A DNA stretch of 22,218 bases from a virus, in IMG/VR virus record IMGVR_UViG_3300022921_000124, positions 1 through 22,218 of that record; one strand, 5' to 3'. The position numbers and the translations under genes are program-made. The notes under the pieces were generated by a model that worked only from the letters and a program-made list of their open reading frames with translations, was not told the DNA's origin and did no database searches. Position 1 is the first letter of the stretch; the number at the start of each line of letters is the position of its first letter. Below, in pieces: positions 4,137 to 8,270 of this stretch.

Positions 4137-5206
4137 TTTGAATAATGGTCGTTTGCTTCAATATAAGTTTCTTTAATAAACTCTTTTAACTTTTGTTTGT
4201 TTAAATCTGTTTGTATTTGATCTACGTAATTATTTAAAAACGTAATGGTATCTTCTCCTTGATCTAATATATCTTCTCTTACACTAGTAAACATATCGCT
4301 TTGTACATCTTCAATAATGTTAACCTCGTGTACATTCATTTTATTTTGTAAACAATCTACTAGTTTATTAAACATATCTTCATTTGTTTTATTAGAAACA
4401 AATAACTTTATAAAACAATTTTCATATGGTGTTAAATCAAAGTTAGTATAATCTGTTTTTTTATCATCATAAATTATTTTTTTAAAGATTGTAAGTGGAT
4501 TAGATATTCTTTCTAATTCTCGTGTTTCTGTGTCAAATACGTGAAACCCTTTAGGACAATTATAGTCTGACCACATAATTTCATATTGAGTTCCTAGATA
4601 ATAAATATGTCCGTCATCTGATTTTTTATGAAAGTGACCAGAAAATACTTTTTCAAATCTTCTTAATTGTTCTTTTTCTAAACCGTGATCGTTCATAACA
4701 CCATTGTGCATTTCAAATCCTTTTACTTCTAAATGACCAAAACAAATATCAGCGGTAGAGTGATCTATTGCGTATATTGAATCTTCGTAATTGTCGTCAC
4801 ATATCCAAGGTAAAAATAACATACGACAACCACCTATTTCTACTTCTTTAGGACCTGTGTATATCCAAGGTTCGTTTACACCATCAAAAGTAGTAACAAG
4901 TTGTTCTATTGAATTAACTTCATTTGTGTTTTTGTAATAAGTGTCGTGGTTGCCTAATATAATATGTGTATCTATTTTTAACTCCCACAATCGTTTCCAA
5001 AACTTCTTTTGAAAATTATGCGCTGTATTAAAATTAATAAACTTTCTTCTATCAACAACATCACCTAAATGAATAAGAGTATCAATCTTGTTCTCAATAA
5101 GATATGGAAAAAATATCTCGTCATAGAAACGATTATGATAACTTATAAATGCAGGTGAGTCGTTACGGCATCCGAAGTGTGTATCATTCAGTAATGCTAT
5201 TTTCAT
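4133..5206 (-). CDS. 47: Recombination endonuclease subunit gp47 (Mre11-like)
   Basis: A calcineurin-type metallophosphoesterase related to Mre11/SbcD. The two-metal site is clear: DTH at 8-10, GDVVDRR at 48-54, GNHD at 85-88, GHLE at 157-160 and SGHFH at 189-193. At 357 residues it is close to T4 gp47 (339), and its N-terminus MKIALLNDTHFG aligns with the T4 start, supporting this ATG. It overlaps the end of gp55 by 23 bases and gp46 by 4 bases. With gp46 it forms the nuclease that generates 3' single strands for UvsX/UvsY-driven strand invasion; UvsY and UvsW are encoded just upstream. No strong Shine-Dalgarno is visible, so translation is probably coupled to gp55. Confidence 0.96.
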   Translation of the reverse strand: MKIALLNDTHFGCRNDSPAFISYHNRFYDEIFFPYLIENKIDTLIHLGDVVDRRKFINFNTAHNFQKKFWKRLWELKIDTHIILGNHDTYYKNTNEVNSIEQLVTTFDGVNEPWIYTGPKEVEIGGCRMLFLPWICDDNYEDSIYAIDHSTADICFGHLEVKGFEMHNGVMNDHGLEKEQLRRFEKVFSGHFHKKSDDGHIYYLGTQYEIMWSDYNCPKGFHVFDTETRELERISNPLTIFKKIIYDDKKTDYTNFDLTPYENCFIKLFVSNKTNEDMFNKLVDCLQNKMNVHEVNIIEDVQSDMFTSVREDILDQGEDTITFLNNYVDQIQTDLNKQKLKEFIKETYIEANDHYSK

Positions 5207-5756
5207 AACTCATAAAGTAATCTAAACTATTTTTACTTTTTCTGACCCTCTTTTTTTTCTTATTACTATCTGCTATTTTTTGTTGTTCTTCAATTGGCAT
5301 ATTCTTTTTAAGATATTCTGTAAATTGATTTGTAAACTCCTTATCTTCACCAGGTTGTAATGTCATATCATCATAATTAGAATCTGTAATAAGTTTATTT
5401 TTAATCGTAACTTGTTTTTTCTCTTTCTGTATTCTTCTTATAAATGCATAATATATGATTTGTGTAAAATATGCAAATGGATTATTTGATTTAGTTGGAT
5501 TAAAGTTGTCTAGGTATTGTAAACAATTTTCTATACCATCACTAATCATATCATCTTTAAAAGTATAATTAATAAAATTAGGTCTATACGATAAATGATT
5601 CGCAATCTTTAAAAAACAACTACCAATATAATCTGTAACTGGTGGTTTAGGTAATTTTTTTCTTTTGGCTTTATTGACCATCTTACGATATTCAATCATT
5701 GCCTGCAAGAACTCTTTATTATTTACATAATGTTCTTTTTTTTGTTTGTTATTCAT
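5184..5756 (-). CDS. 55: Late-transcription sigma factor gp55
   Basis: A highly diverged sigma factor that redirects host RNA polymerase to late promoters together with the sliding clamp. The N-terminal segment YVNNKEFLQAMIEYRK aligns with the T4 gp55 start. The core around DDMISDGIENCLQYLDNFNP and NPFAYFTQIIYYAFIRRIQKEKKQ corresponds to the sigma region 2-like core-binding and -10 recognition part. The C-terminus ends in SLDYFMSYENSITE; in T4 the clamp-binding hydrophobic tail SLDFLYE sits at the same place, so SLDYFMS is the likely equivalent. At 190 residues it matches T4 (185). The ATG is only 7 bases from a consensus -10 box and has no Shine-Dalgarno, implying a leaderless message. The TATAARTA boxes elsewhere in this window are its expected targets. 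Confidence 0.94.
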   Translation of the reverse strand: MNNKQKKEHYVNNKEFLQAMIEYRKMVNKAKRKKLPKPPVTDYIGSCFLKIANHLSYRPNFINYTFKDDMISDGIENCLQYLDNFNPTKSNNPFAYFTQIIYYAFIRRIQKEKKQVTIKNKLITDSNYDDMTLQPGEDKEFTNQFTEYLKKNMPIEEQQKIADSNKKKKRVRKSKNSLDYFMSYENSITE

Positions 5757-5763
5757 AATATAT

Positions 5764-5792
5764 AATATACTATATTTTGTTTAAAATGTCAA
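5764..5792 (-). promoter_or_regulatory. Sigma70-type promoter for the gp55-47-46 operon
   Basis: On the minus strand TTGACA (5792-5787) and TATATT (5769-5764) are separated by exactly 17 bases. The -35 is perfect and the -10 has one mismatch to TATAAT. The distance from the -10 to the gp55 ATG is 7 bases, so transcription should begin at or next to the A of the start codon. It would drive gp55, gp47, gp46, deformylase and the downstream accessory genes with host RNA polymerase before late transcription. Confidence 0.7.
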
Positions 5793-5852
5793 TGTTTTAA
5801 TTGGAGTTTTTTATAATAAAAAATATTATTTTTTTCCTGTTTTAACATTGAC
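5788..5852. repeat. 9-bp inverted repeat joining two divergent promoters
   Basis: GTCAATGTT at 5788-5796 and AACATTGAC at 5844-5852 are perfect inverted copies. Each copy contains most of a -35 element, one facing left toward gp55 and one facing right. About 47 bases separate the arms, including an AT-rich hairpin-like stretch (ATAATA/TATTAT around 5813-5830). The arrangement is what a common regulator or an upstream-promoter element shared by two back-to-back promoters would leave. Confidence 0.5.
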
Positions 5853-5875
5853 TTTTTCATTATTTTGTGTATAAT
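5848..5875 (+). promoter_or_regulatory. Divergent sigma70-type promoter on the plus strand
   Basis: TTGACT (5848-5853) and a perfect TATAAT (5870-5875) are separated by 16 bases on the plus strand, pointing away from gp55 and into the antisense strand of the LSm-like gene and uvsW. The predicted start is near 5882. No clear plus-strand gene follows. A 25-codon frame from ATG 5925 encodes a very hydrophobic peptide, but that composition is expected opposite an acidic coding stretch. The likely product is an antisense or small RNA. It could also be chance in AT-rich DNA. Confidence 0.45.
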
Positions 5876-5921
5876 AGAGCGTGTAGTGAGTGATTGAAGG
5901 TAATAGCTAAAGATAGTATTA

Positions 5922-6356
5922 TTAATGAATAGTTTTATCCAAATCTTCATCATCATATTCATCAAATATTTCATTAAGTTTTTCATTTTGTTCAGCAGAT
6001 AATTCTTGTGTTGTATATTTACTATTTTTGACGGGAACTGGTTTTTGATTGTAAGTGTTAGCAATATTCATATAACTACTAGCCATTTCTACAGTAGCAC
6101 TAGTTATTGTCATAATTTTATCTTTTGGAATAGTAATAATTTGATCTGGTGTATAAGAACACCATTTAATTAAAGCAACATAATCTTTAAAACCTGTCAT
6201 TGTCATTTGAGGCACATACTTAATTAATAGAGGTTTTTCTAAACGCATTAGTTTAGAATCTGTTGGTAATTGTTTATCACCAATAGGCAATATGCAAACA
6301 ACATCTTCACCGTTAACCAATTTTATTATTTTAATATTTTCTGTAGTATGGTGCAT
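5922..6356 (-). CDS. LSm/Hfq-like small protein
   Basis: A 144-residue protein whose N-terminal part resembles an Sm-fold beta barrel. IKIIKLVNGEDVVCILP (8-24) matches the LSm1-type opening with its VNGE turn, followed by LMRLEKPLLIKYV and VALIKWCSYTPDQIITIPKDKIMTI, which would supply the remaining strands. The last 35 residues are acidic and probably disordered (FDEYDDEDLDKTIH). It starts 1 base after the uvsW stop and is the last gene of the uvsY operon. Genes of this type sit between uvsW and gp55 in marine T4-like phages, and a role in RNA binding or transcription control is possible but unproven. The fold is moderately supported from pattern only. Confidence 0.6.
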   Translation of the reverse strand: MHHTTENIKIIKLVNGEDVVCILPIGDKQLPTDSKLMRLEKPLLIKYVPQMTMTGFKDYVALIKWCSYTPDQIITIPKDKIMTITSATVEMASSYMNIANTYNQKPVPVKNSKYTTQELSAEQNEKLNEIFDEYDDEDLDKTIH

Positions 6357-6357
6357 A

Positions 6358-7839
6358 TTACTTTAACTCTACGTTGTGTATTTCATAATTAAAATCTTCT
6401 TCATTATAGATATTTATTCTTTCTCTAAAGTGTGCTAAAGTGTAATTTTCTTTTTCATTATAAGTTAAATCATCTGAAATATCATATAATGTAGCACTAG
6501 AATTATTATCTTTTAACCTAAGACCACGGCCAATACTTTGGAGATTCCTAATCCTAGACTTTGAAGGACTAGCAAAAACAATATTGTGTAAGTTACGAAT
6601 GTTAATGCCAGTAGAAAAAGTGCCATAACTAGCAACAATAATAGCCCCCTCCGACTTTTCTGTAATGAAACGAATCTTTTCTCGCTCTTCTGCTTCAACA
6701 CCTCCATAAACAAAGAAAACTTTTTTATCATCAGCTTTCTCCTCGATTAATTGTTTAAGTAGCATTCCGTGTTTTTCAACGTACTGAAACAGACATAATG
6801 TATTGCCTTGTAAAGACAAACATAGATTGCGTATATATTTATTCCGTTTTTCGTTAGAAACGATATAATCCATTTCTTCTTGGTATGTTTTATCTTTTAA
6901 AAAGTGTCTAGCAGTTTTATCGTGTTGAAGTATTAAACAGAATATCTTTAAGTCAGCAAGTTGTTTCTTTTCTTGTAATTCACTTGTTGATACAACTTTA
7001 TTTACAGTACCAAATAAACCCTCTAATACAAGTTTATGTGTTTTAGTACCATCTAAAGTACCTGTAAGTCCAACTCTATATTTACATTTTTCAAGTTTAT
7101 TCATTATCTTACTTAATGAAACTGCTTTAAATAAATGTGCTTCATCACCAATCACCATACCAAATTGTTGAAACCATTTTTTAGGTAAATTATAGATTGA
7201 TTGCCAAGTAGATATAATAACTCTTTTGTTTGTTTCTTTATCGTGTCCTTGATATATTCTATGTACGTTACGATCACTATTATAACCATAATCTTTAAAG
7301 TCTTTAAATAATTGTTCTACTAAAGATGTTGTTGGTACAATAATGAGTATTTTATCTTGTTTACTTTCTTTTAATCTCAATAAATTAAAGATTAACATTA
7401 AGTATATAATTAAAGATTTACCAGAGGCAGTAGGAGATAATAATAAACATCTACTCTTTTTAATAGAGTGTACAAATGCCTCTCTTTGATAATCTCTTAT
7501 TTCTATTTTAGGAATTTTAAGTGCTTTTAAAAACTTATCTATATCATCTTCTTTTATTGATACATCTTTTATTTTAGTTCCGTCAACAACCTGTACATCA
7601 TTCTTTTTACACCAATCTACAATATAAGGATAAAGTCCTGCATAGATTTGACCTGTAGCATAACTGAATAGTCTAATTTTGCCATCCCAAACTCTACTAC
7701 GATATTGAGGCATAAACTTAAAACCAGGTACTTCAAATGTAAAGTATTCTCCAAGTTCTCGTCTTATATCTGCGTCTGCCTCTATTTTTAAATAGACTTC
7801 GTTCTTCTTATCTATGATGAGGTAACGTGTTGTGGTCAT
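6358..7839 (-). CDS. uvsW: UvsW superfamily 2 helicase
   Basis: An SF2 helicase of T4 UvsW type, which unwinds R-loops and branched recombination intermediates and thereby shifts replication from origin-dependent to recombination-dependent. Visible motifs: Q-like region RDYQREAF (115-122), Walker A SPTASGKS (135-142), TSLVEQL (Ia, 171-177), DEAH (232-235), LTGTL (motif III, 258-262), and motif VI QSIGRGLR (434-441). The first 85 residues form the small N-terminal substrate-recognition domain (FKFMPQYRSRVWDGKIRLF), also present in T4. At 493 residues it matches T4 (about 503). It starts 2 bases after uvsY with no strong Shine-Dalgarno, suggesting coupled translation. Confidence 0.96.
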   Translation of the reverse strand: MTTTRYLIIDKKNEVYLKIEADADIRRELGEYFTFEVPGFKFMPQYRSRVWDGKIRLFSYATGQIYAGLYPYIVDWCKKNDVQVVDGTKIKDVSIKEDDIDKFLKALKIPKIEIRDYQREAFVHSIKKSRCLLLSPTASGKSLIIYLMLIFNLLRLKESKQDKILIIVPTTSLVEQLFKDFKDYGYNSDRNVHRIYQGHDKETNKRVIISTWQSIYNLPKKWFQQFGMVIGDEAHLFKAVSLSKIMNKLEKCKYRVGLTGTLDGTKTHKLVLEGLFGTVNKVVSTSELQEKKQLADLKIFCLILQHDKTARHFLKDKTYQEEMDYIVSNEKRNKYIRNLCLSLQGNTLCLFQYVEKHGMLLKQLIEEKADDKKVFFVYGGVEAEEREKIRFITEKSEGAIIVASYGTFSTGINIRNLHNIVFASPSKSRIRNLQSIGRGLRLKDNNSSATLYDISDDLTYNEKENYTLAHFRERINIYNEEDFNYEIHNVELK

Positions 7840-7841
7840 TT

Positions 7842-8270
7842 TTAGATAGCGCCACTAGTAAACTTTCTCCAGTCTATAGCGTTCTTTATTGTAAAAGTTC
7901 TATTAGAAATTTGTCTAATAGTTCTATCTAAAAAATCAATTACTGTTTCTAAGTATTTAACTTTTTGAGTTGCTTTTTGTATTTCTTCGTCTGCTTCAAT
8001 ATACTTGTCAACGTCTTGTTTTAAAATTTTTAGATTAAAAGGTTTTTGTTGATATACTTGTGGGTCTGATTTACCTGTATAATATTCCCATTTAAATAAT
8101 CGTATTGTTCTTAAATCATCTTCAGCACGTGTTAATAACAACTTAAACTTTGTTAAGTGTTTCATATACTTGTTATGTAACTGAGGAGTTTTCAAAGACT
8201 CTAAATCTAATTCAGTATCGTTAATCTTTAGGTCTTTTTCTGCTAGTTCTTGTATTTGTTCTAAATCCAT
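7842..8270 (-). CDS. uvsY: UvsY recombination mediator
   Basis: A 142-residue, charged, largely helical protein with the size of T4 UvsY (137). The segment LTRAEDDLRTIRLFKWEYYTGKSDPQVY (about 46-73) is the characteristic UvsY core. It ends in a helix with RTFTIKNAIDWRKFTSG. UvsY loads the UvsX recombinase on gp32-coated single strands. It is the first gene of a three-gene operon (uvsY, uvsW, LSm-like). Its ATG lies 9 bases from a perfect TATAAT, so little or no leader is expected. A GGA sits 7 to 9 bases before the ATG, which would only count as a ribosome-binding site if transcription starts unusually early. Confidence 0.92.
   Translation of the reverse strand: MDLEQIQELAEKDLKINDTELDLESLKTPQLHNKYMKHLTKFKLLLTRAEDDLRTIRLFKWEYYTGKSDPQVYQQKPFNLKILKQDVDKYIEADEEIQKATQKVKYLETVIDFLDRTIRQISNRTFTIKNAIDWRKFTSGAI

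Follow-up and report, generated by a model that had tools for sequence, protein, structure and literature searches.

T4-like marine phages are among the most abundant phages of the sea, and the timing of their genes is poorly understood. Several non-coding RNAs have been described in the cyanophages of this group, namely CfrI, PhotoRC-II, wcaG and the glutamine riboswitch (PMC9964418). CfrI, from cyanophage S-PM2, is a cis-antisense RNA of about 225 nt, seen experimentally, which lies opposite psbA and a homing endonuclease. In T4 itself, the studied replication origins consist of a promoter and an AT-rich unwinding region, and one of them uses an early promoter; UvsW, which is made late, dissolves the R-loops formed at origins and thereby shuts such origins (PMC3016281). 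Convergent antisense promoters, which act by transcriptional interference, are described in bacteria and phages, and point against an operon from its 3' end. As to transcription in the marine relatives, satisfactory prediction of middle and late promoters failed for pelagimyophages (PMC7029224), while the SAR11 phage transcriptome covers two other pelagiphages, HTVC022P and HTVC027P (PMC12753301); for P-HM2 growing on Prochlorococcus MED4, the passages searched report antisense RNA for the host only (PMC5082946).

The locus described here is located in a 22.2-kb virus record (22,218 nucleotides, analysed as a whole and indicated as "the window"), a fragment of a T4-like pelagiphage, whose closest named relatives are the Pelagibacter phages Mosig and HTVC008M. 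A rightward promoter, found upstream of gp55, would give this T4-like marine phage a non-coding RNA which, like CfrI, is antisense in cis. The locus and the partner genes are different, the gp55-side promoter is also found in pelagiphages, and the gp55/uvsW RNA is predicted from sequence, where CfrI was observed; S-PM2 has the gp55-side promoter too. Like the convergent promoters, the new one points against an operon from the 3' end, but it belongs to lytic phages and to a boundary between early and late genes, with no known protein repressor or lysogeny switch. Like T4 oriE and oriF, it would have a promoter-dependent, non-protein role near recombination genes, with UvsW acting on R-loops (PMC3016281), although no origin activity is known or detected at the gp55 gap. 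Unlike the listed cyanophage RNAs, the window features no Rfam match at the gathering threshold, and in five relatives nothing but tRNA exceeds the gathering score. The literature passages searched, which did not include the Syn9 transcriptome (Doron et al. 2016), contain no description of the gp55-side antisense promoter.

A conserved rightward promoter upstream of gp55

All the genes recognised in the window are on the minus strand, and are therefore read leftward. In this direction, the late operon includes terminase, tail sheath, portal, scaffold, major head, a tail-tube match, the recombination mediator uvsY (7842-8270, PF11056), the helicase uvsW (6358-7839, PF21241 UvsW_N plus helicase domains) and, as its last gene, a Sm/LSm-like protein (5922-6356, phrog_471, labelled 'methylamine utilization'). 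Past this gene, transcription units continue leftward with the early operon, composed of gp55, gp47 and gp46, and with a peptide deformylase; gp55, the sigma factor for late transcription, is found at 5184-5756 (phrog_234, E 4.8e-64). The gap between gp55 and the Sm-like gene, 165 bp long, is the largest of the window, and marks the boundary between a late block, ending in the Sm-like gene, and an early replication block, opening with gp55. This layout agrees with an earlier interpretation of the same DNA, made from the letters alone (the sequence-only reading), as to the size rank of the gap and the position of uvsW beyond the LSm-like gene.

The assignment of the latter gene, also proposed there, is borne out by structural comparison. 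The protein matches 3by7 with a phmmer E of 1.8e-5, and its AlphaFold model (mean pLDDT 78), when superposed on 3by7, reaches a VIA-align Z of 11.8, with an rmsd of 1.5 over 80 residues. According to this model, the gene adjoining the gap encodes a true Sm/LSm fold; this refers to the fold alone, and RNA binding is only putative. Across pelagiphages and a methylophage the protein ends in T-[I/L/V]-H (5922-5933 in the window), while the rest of the C-terminal tail diverges.

Two sigma-70 promoters lie back to back in the gap, at the positions first given by the sequence-only reading. The leftward one, serving gp55, spans 5764-5792 on the minus strand (-35 TTGACA at 5792-5787, 17 bp, -10 TATATT at 5769-5764); the rightward one, antisense to the late operon, spans 5848-5875 on the plus strand (-35 TTGACT at 5848-5853, 16 bp, -10 TATAAT at 5870-5875). 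When compared with TTGACA and TATAAT, separated by 16–18 bp and followed by a start 6–9 nt past the -10, each of them matches at 11 of 12 positions, and they are the best two matches in the interval 3-9 kb of the window. The rightward promoter, whose -35 is nearly invariant in relatives, with a conserved -10 and a G at +7/+8, does face no plus-strand gene, as had been noticed, all recognised genes to its right being on the opposite strand.

Conservation was evaluated in a set of 83 related loci (80 IMG/VR loci encoding a gp55 relative and three phage records), with the gp55 start and the preceding gene's stop codon as the two anchors of the alignment. Of the 83 gp55-upstream gaps, 78 hold a rightward sigma-70 site matching at 11 or more of 12 positions, against 0.5 expected from the match rate elsewhere in the same loci; both promoters are present in 76. 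Loss of the rightward -10 in relatives, which would have spoken against the original proposal, is therefore not what is observed. In Mosig the match is complete (12/12), and rare among the sites of that genome. Within the alignment conservation is limited to the -35, the -10 and the start region, and stops about 25 nt past the predicted start. A second set, built on cyanophage gp55, includes 55 distinct gaps: TTGACA-17-TANNNT is found in all of them, in the same orientation. P-SSM3, P-RSM4, Syn9 and S-PM2 are among the cyanophages with the rightward promoter. For the 55 gaps the best-scoring site was taken in each, and the evidence is thus the constant hexamer and spacing, not the score; variation in the -10 is confined to positions where sigma-70 tolerates change. 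In the methylophage Melnitz no -35/-10 pair is recognisable rightward at the usual spacing; a TATATT with a weak -35 may be seen by eye. The rightward promoter is thus shown to be real, and both pelagimyophages and cyanomyophages keep it with the same fixed architecture of -35, -10 and start site.

The mutual arrangement of the two promoters is much less constant. The 9-mer AACATTGAC does occur as inverted copies around both -35 elements (5788-5796 and 5844-5852), as first noticed from the window; the meaning then attributed to this mirror symmetry did not survive the comparison with relatives. The distance between the -35s, 55 bp in the window, ranges from 8 to 557 bp in pelagiphages, and the bases preceding the rightward TTGAC vary (AGCA, ACGC, TAGG, AACA). 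Because of this variable spacing and of the different flanks, AACATTGAC is not a conserved operator: a shared inverted -35 with operator function was rejected, and the symmetry is regarded as incidental. In nearly all cyanophages the two -35s are interleaved or touching, and in most of them they interleave at a constant geometry, -16 or -7. Where the promoters overlap, as in most cyanophages, RNA polymerase cannot occupy both at once; at the -16 geometry, a polymerase bound to either promoter would have a footprint extending over the other. In most cyanophage loci, as at 1193-1235 of L085, the promoters interleave on the palindrome TTGACAnnnTTGTCAA.

In pelagiphages part of the extra distance between the promoters is taken up by small cargo, inserted there on the gp55 strand (loci L012, L016, L017, L028, L067, L068, L070, L074-L076 and L080). 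A tRNA-Gly(GCC) is found in L016, L017 and L070; the other cargo consists of small ORFs, including a family of 62-aa proteins and one 179-aa ORF.

On the gp55 side, the -10 is 7 nt from the ATG in the window, and ends 6, 7 or 9 nt from it in 62 of 68 distinct pelagiphage loci. Given such a short distance, the gp55 mRNA is predicted to be, probably, leaderless. Similarly short spacings are found at several other early promoters of Mosig.

The predicted start site and its inverted repeat

Transcription from the rightward promoter is predicted to start at 5883 on the plus strand, at the G of a conserved TGT, 8 nt past the -10. In 82 of 84 pelagiphage rows and in 54 of 55 cyanophage rows, the first TGT following the -10 has its G 7 or 8 nt downstream, the usual distance of a start from the -10. 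In Syn9, the predicted start is the G of AACACTGTCAGGGTT, between gp143 and gp55.

For most pelagiphage clades, hardly so for that of the window, the start G is also the centre of an inverted repeat. Examples are GGACT-ATGT-AGTCC, GGTCT-ATGT-AGACC, AGACT-ATGT-AGTCT, AACGG-TGT-CCGTT and CAGCG-TGT-CGCTG: the arms change between relatives, and pairing is retained. At least four Watson-Crick pairs were counted by hand in 24 of 53 distinct sequences, and, in comparison with shuffled sequence, the excess of repeats is highest at the start site (z 10.2 in the interval nearest to it). The gp55 promoters of the same loci show no excess of inverted repeats (z 0.9), and no start-site repeat is seen at the other strong promoters of Mosig; the repeat was accordingly rejected as a general promoter feature. 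Cyanophages feature a shorter AACC/GGTT repeat, where the signal is weaker and distinct sequences are few. In the window the corresponding region, 5876-5893 on the plus strand, is decayed (AGAGCGTGTAGTGAGTGA, no Watson-Crick stem), and locus L005 also lacks a Watson-Crick stem. As the repeat is decayed in the window and in its nearest relatives, it is common but not required.

A hairpin at the 5' end of the plus-strand RNA was considered and rejected: the 5' arm of the repeat precedes the predicted start, and therefore cannot form in an RNA starting at +7/+8. Wobble pairs inside the stems, in a count over the pelagiphage set, are 10 G.T against 2 A.C, thus leaning to the rightward strand, but this strand is rich in G and T, and the gain obtained by allowing G.T pairs is below that of shuffled sequences. 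The repeat may act at the DNA level, during initiation, or within the mRNA of the opposite strand; in the second case its loop and one of its arms would be matched by the antisense 5' end.

The predicted antisense RNA and its possible roles

As no rightward gene follows the promoter, its product should be a cis-antisense non-coding transcript. No long plus-strand ORF is found downstream, and a plus-strand protein product was rejected on this ground; the ATG/GTG located at the Sm-like stop codon is a product of the His codon in the conserved C-terminal T-[I/L]-H, for which both His codons are used. The predicted start is 39 nt from the Sm-like stop codon and directed towards it, with no good terminator between. 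The 5' part of the transcript, as read from sequence, would extend over 5883-5934 (plus strand), and includes a weak hairpin across the stop codon (AGCTA at 5905-5909 and TAGTT at 5930-5934), followed by TTATCC; related hairpins are present in relatives. Very probably, marine T4-like phages make at this position, early in infection, a non-coding RNA so far undescribed. A short RNA and one that continues through the Sm-like gene into uvsW, the next gene on its path, are considered equally likely.

Added synonymous constraint under the antisense RNA is not clearly detected, after allowing for amino-acid composition. Since neither the RNA sequence nor the choice of the overlapped codons is specially conserved, a trans-acting RNA or peptide is unlikely; the end of conservation, about 25 nt past the start, argues instead for a role in cis. 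Such a role fits without a conserved sequence, because a cis-antisense RNA is always complementary to its target: pairing, interference or R-loop formation need none.

The explanation favoured here, to which about even credence is given, with reservations bearing mostly on the function and not on the promoter, is that early antisense transcription restrains the late uvsW/Sm-like operon. The divergent promoters, taken as host sigma-70 (early) ones, lie where the late operon meets the early replication operon. At the early stage of infection, the leftward one would direct a leaderless gp55 mRNA, and the rightward one a non-coding RNA covering in antisense the 3' part of the Sm-like gene, and perhaps uvsW. 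Antisense transcription would act in cis, by RNA pairing, by polymerase collision or by a polymerase sitting on the promoter, and read-through of the late operon, above all into UvsW, would be held low. Later, the phage-modified RNA polymerase, directed by gp55, would abandon the sigma-70 promoters, and the antisense would fall silent.

Among the late genes to the right, several are preceded by sites matching a T4-type late motif, TATAAATA, while strong leftward sigma-70 matches inside the uvsW/Sm-like region are rare in relatives, and none is common. On these grounds, uvsW and the Sm-like gene would depend mainly on upstream transcription. The late synthesis of T4 UvsW, and its ability to dissolve origin R-loops, make an early UvsW plausibly harmful, which would be a reason to keep it low. 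The conservation of the rightward promoter in both sets, its 12/12 match in Mosig, the mutually exclusive occupancy in most cyanophages and the start-site G, fixed 7–8 nt from the -10, count in favour of this explanation; interference with the late genes is what we infer from position only. Against restraint of the late operon, the dependence of late promoters on gp55 may by itself keep the late genes off early, making extra repression unnecessary; the gp55-strand cargo, placed in some phages in the interval separating the two promoters, would have to be reached by transcription reading through the antisense promoter; and Melnitz has no recognisable rightward promoter at the usual spacing.

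A more elaborate version, considered unlikely, takes in the inverted repeat. A family-wide early antisense promoter would time the late uvsW/Sm-like operon, or prime replication, starting inside a repeat kept by compensatory change and not by its sequence; the opposing mRNA would then form a hairpin whose loop and one arm are complementary to the antisense 5' end, or the non-template strand would fold at the start. To our knowledge, neither start-site architecture has a precedent.

The strongest rival of antisense restraint, although an unlikely one, is a replication origin, where the non-coding transcript would form an R-loop priming leading-strand synthesis. This would resemble T4 oriF, which is the uvsY promoter, or oriE, which is an early promoter, and the R-loop would be dissolved by UvsW once this is produced, at a later time, from the same region. 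T4 offers the precedent of promoter-plus-AT-rich origins silenced by UvsW (PMC3016281); the promoter described here is adjacent to uvsW, is followed by AT-rich DNA and is predicted to yield a non-coding RNA. Its conservation, extending to the start region and not downstream, also fits R-loops, as these need no specific sequence. Yet no switch of GC or AT skew is found in Mosig at fourfold-degenerate sites at this locus (21 kb), a result that would also be compatible with an origin.

An improbable alternative is a discrete small RNA, of about 50–70 nt, ended by the hairpin over the Sm-like stop codon and by T-rich antisense sequence. It would act on the Sm-like mRNA, resulting in autoregulation of the phage Sm protein, or in trans together with the Sm-like protein. 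In pelagiphages, stem-loops with a T-rich tail past the stop codon score 3.03 on average, against 2.11 (sd 0.11) for shuffled sequence and 0.69 for the opposite strand, T-rich bins are found 10–20 nt past the stop, and the adjoining protein has, by its model, a Sm fold. However, terminator-like structures with a good score are found just past the stop in only about 29% of pelagiphage loci and 2% of cyanophage loci, and no convincing plus-strand terminator is present in the window, where the sequence-only reading had proposed to look for one after 5882; the RNA has no conserved sequence past the start region and no Rfam match, and the AlphaFold model of the Sm-like protein is silent on RNA binding. 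The regulatory small RNA envisaged by the sequence-only reading is thus unsupported as a discrete species.

Still more improbable is that the rightward promoter matters only through the bound polymerase, which would block the gp55 promoter or compete with it, the RNA being a by-product. The interleaved -35s of most cyanophages, constant in geometry and making the promoters mutually exclusive, are in its favour; in pelagiphages, however, the promoters are often too far apart for competition and the rightward one is still near-consensus, and the conserved start-site G points to productive initiation. Finally, a chance promoter-like sequence in AT-rich DNA, suggested by the fact that 11/12 matches are not rare (shuffling the window is expected to give about one on each strand), is refuted, not by the quality of the match within one AT-rich sequence, but by conservation at a specific position, in 78 of 83 loci against 0.5 expected and in cyanophages as well.

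A near-consensus promoter, facing no gene and shared by phages of SAR11 and of Prochlorococcus, would represent a control point at the junction of the early and late blocks, located beside the late sigma factor itself. The prediction that follows from it is precise: plus-strand RNA should begin at one specified G, 5883 in the window.
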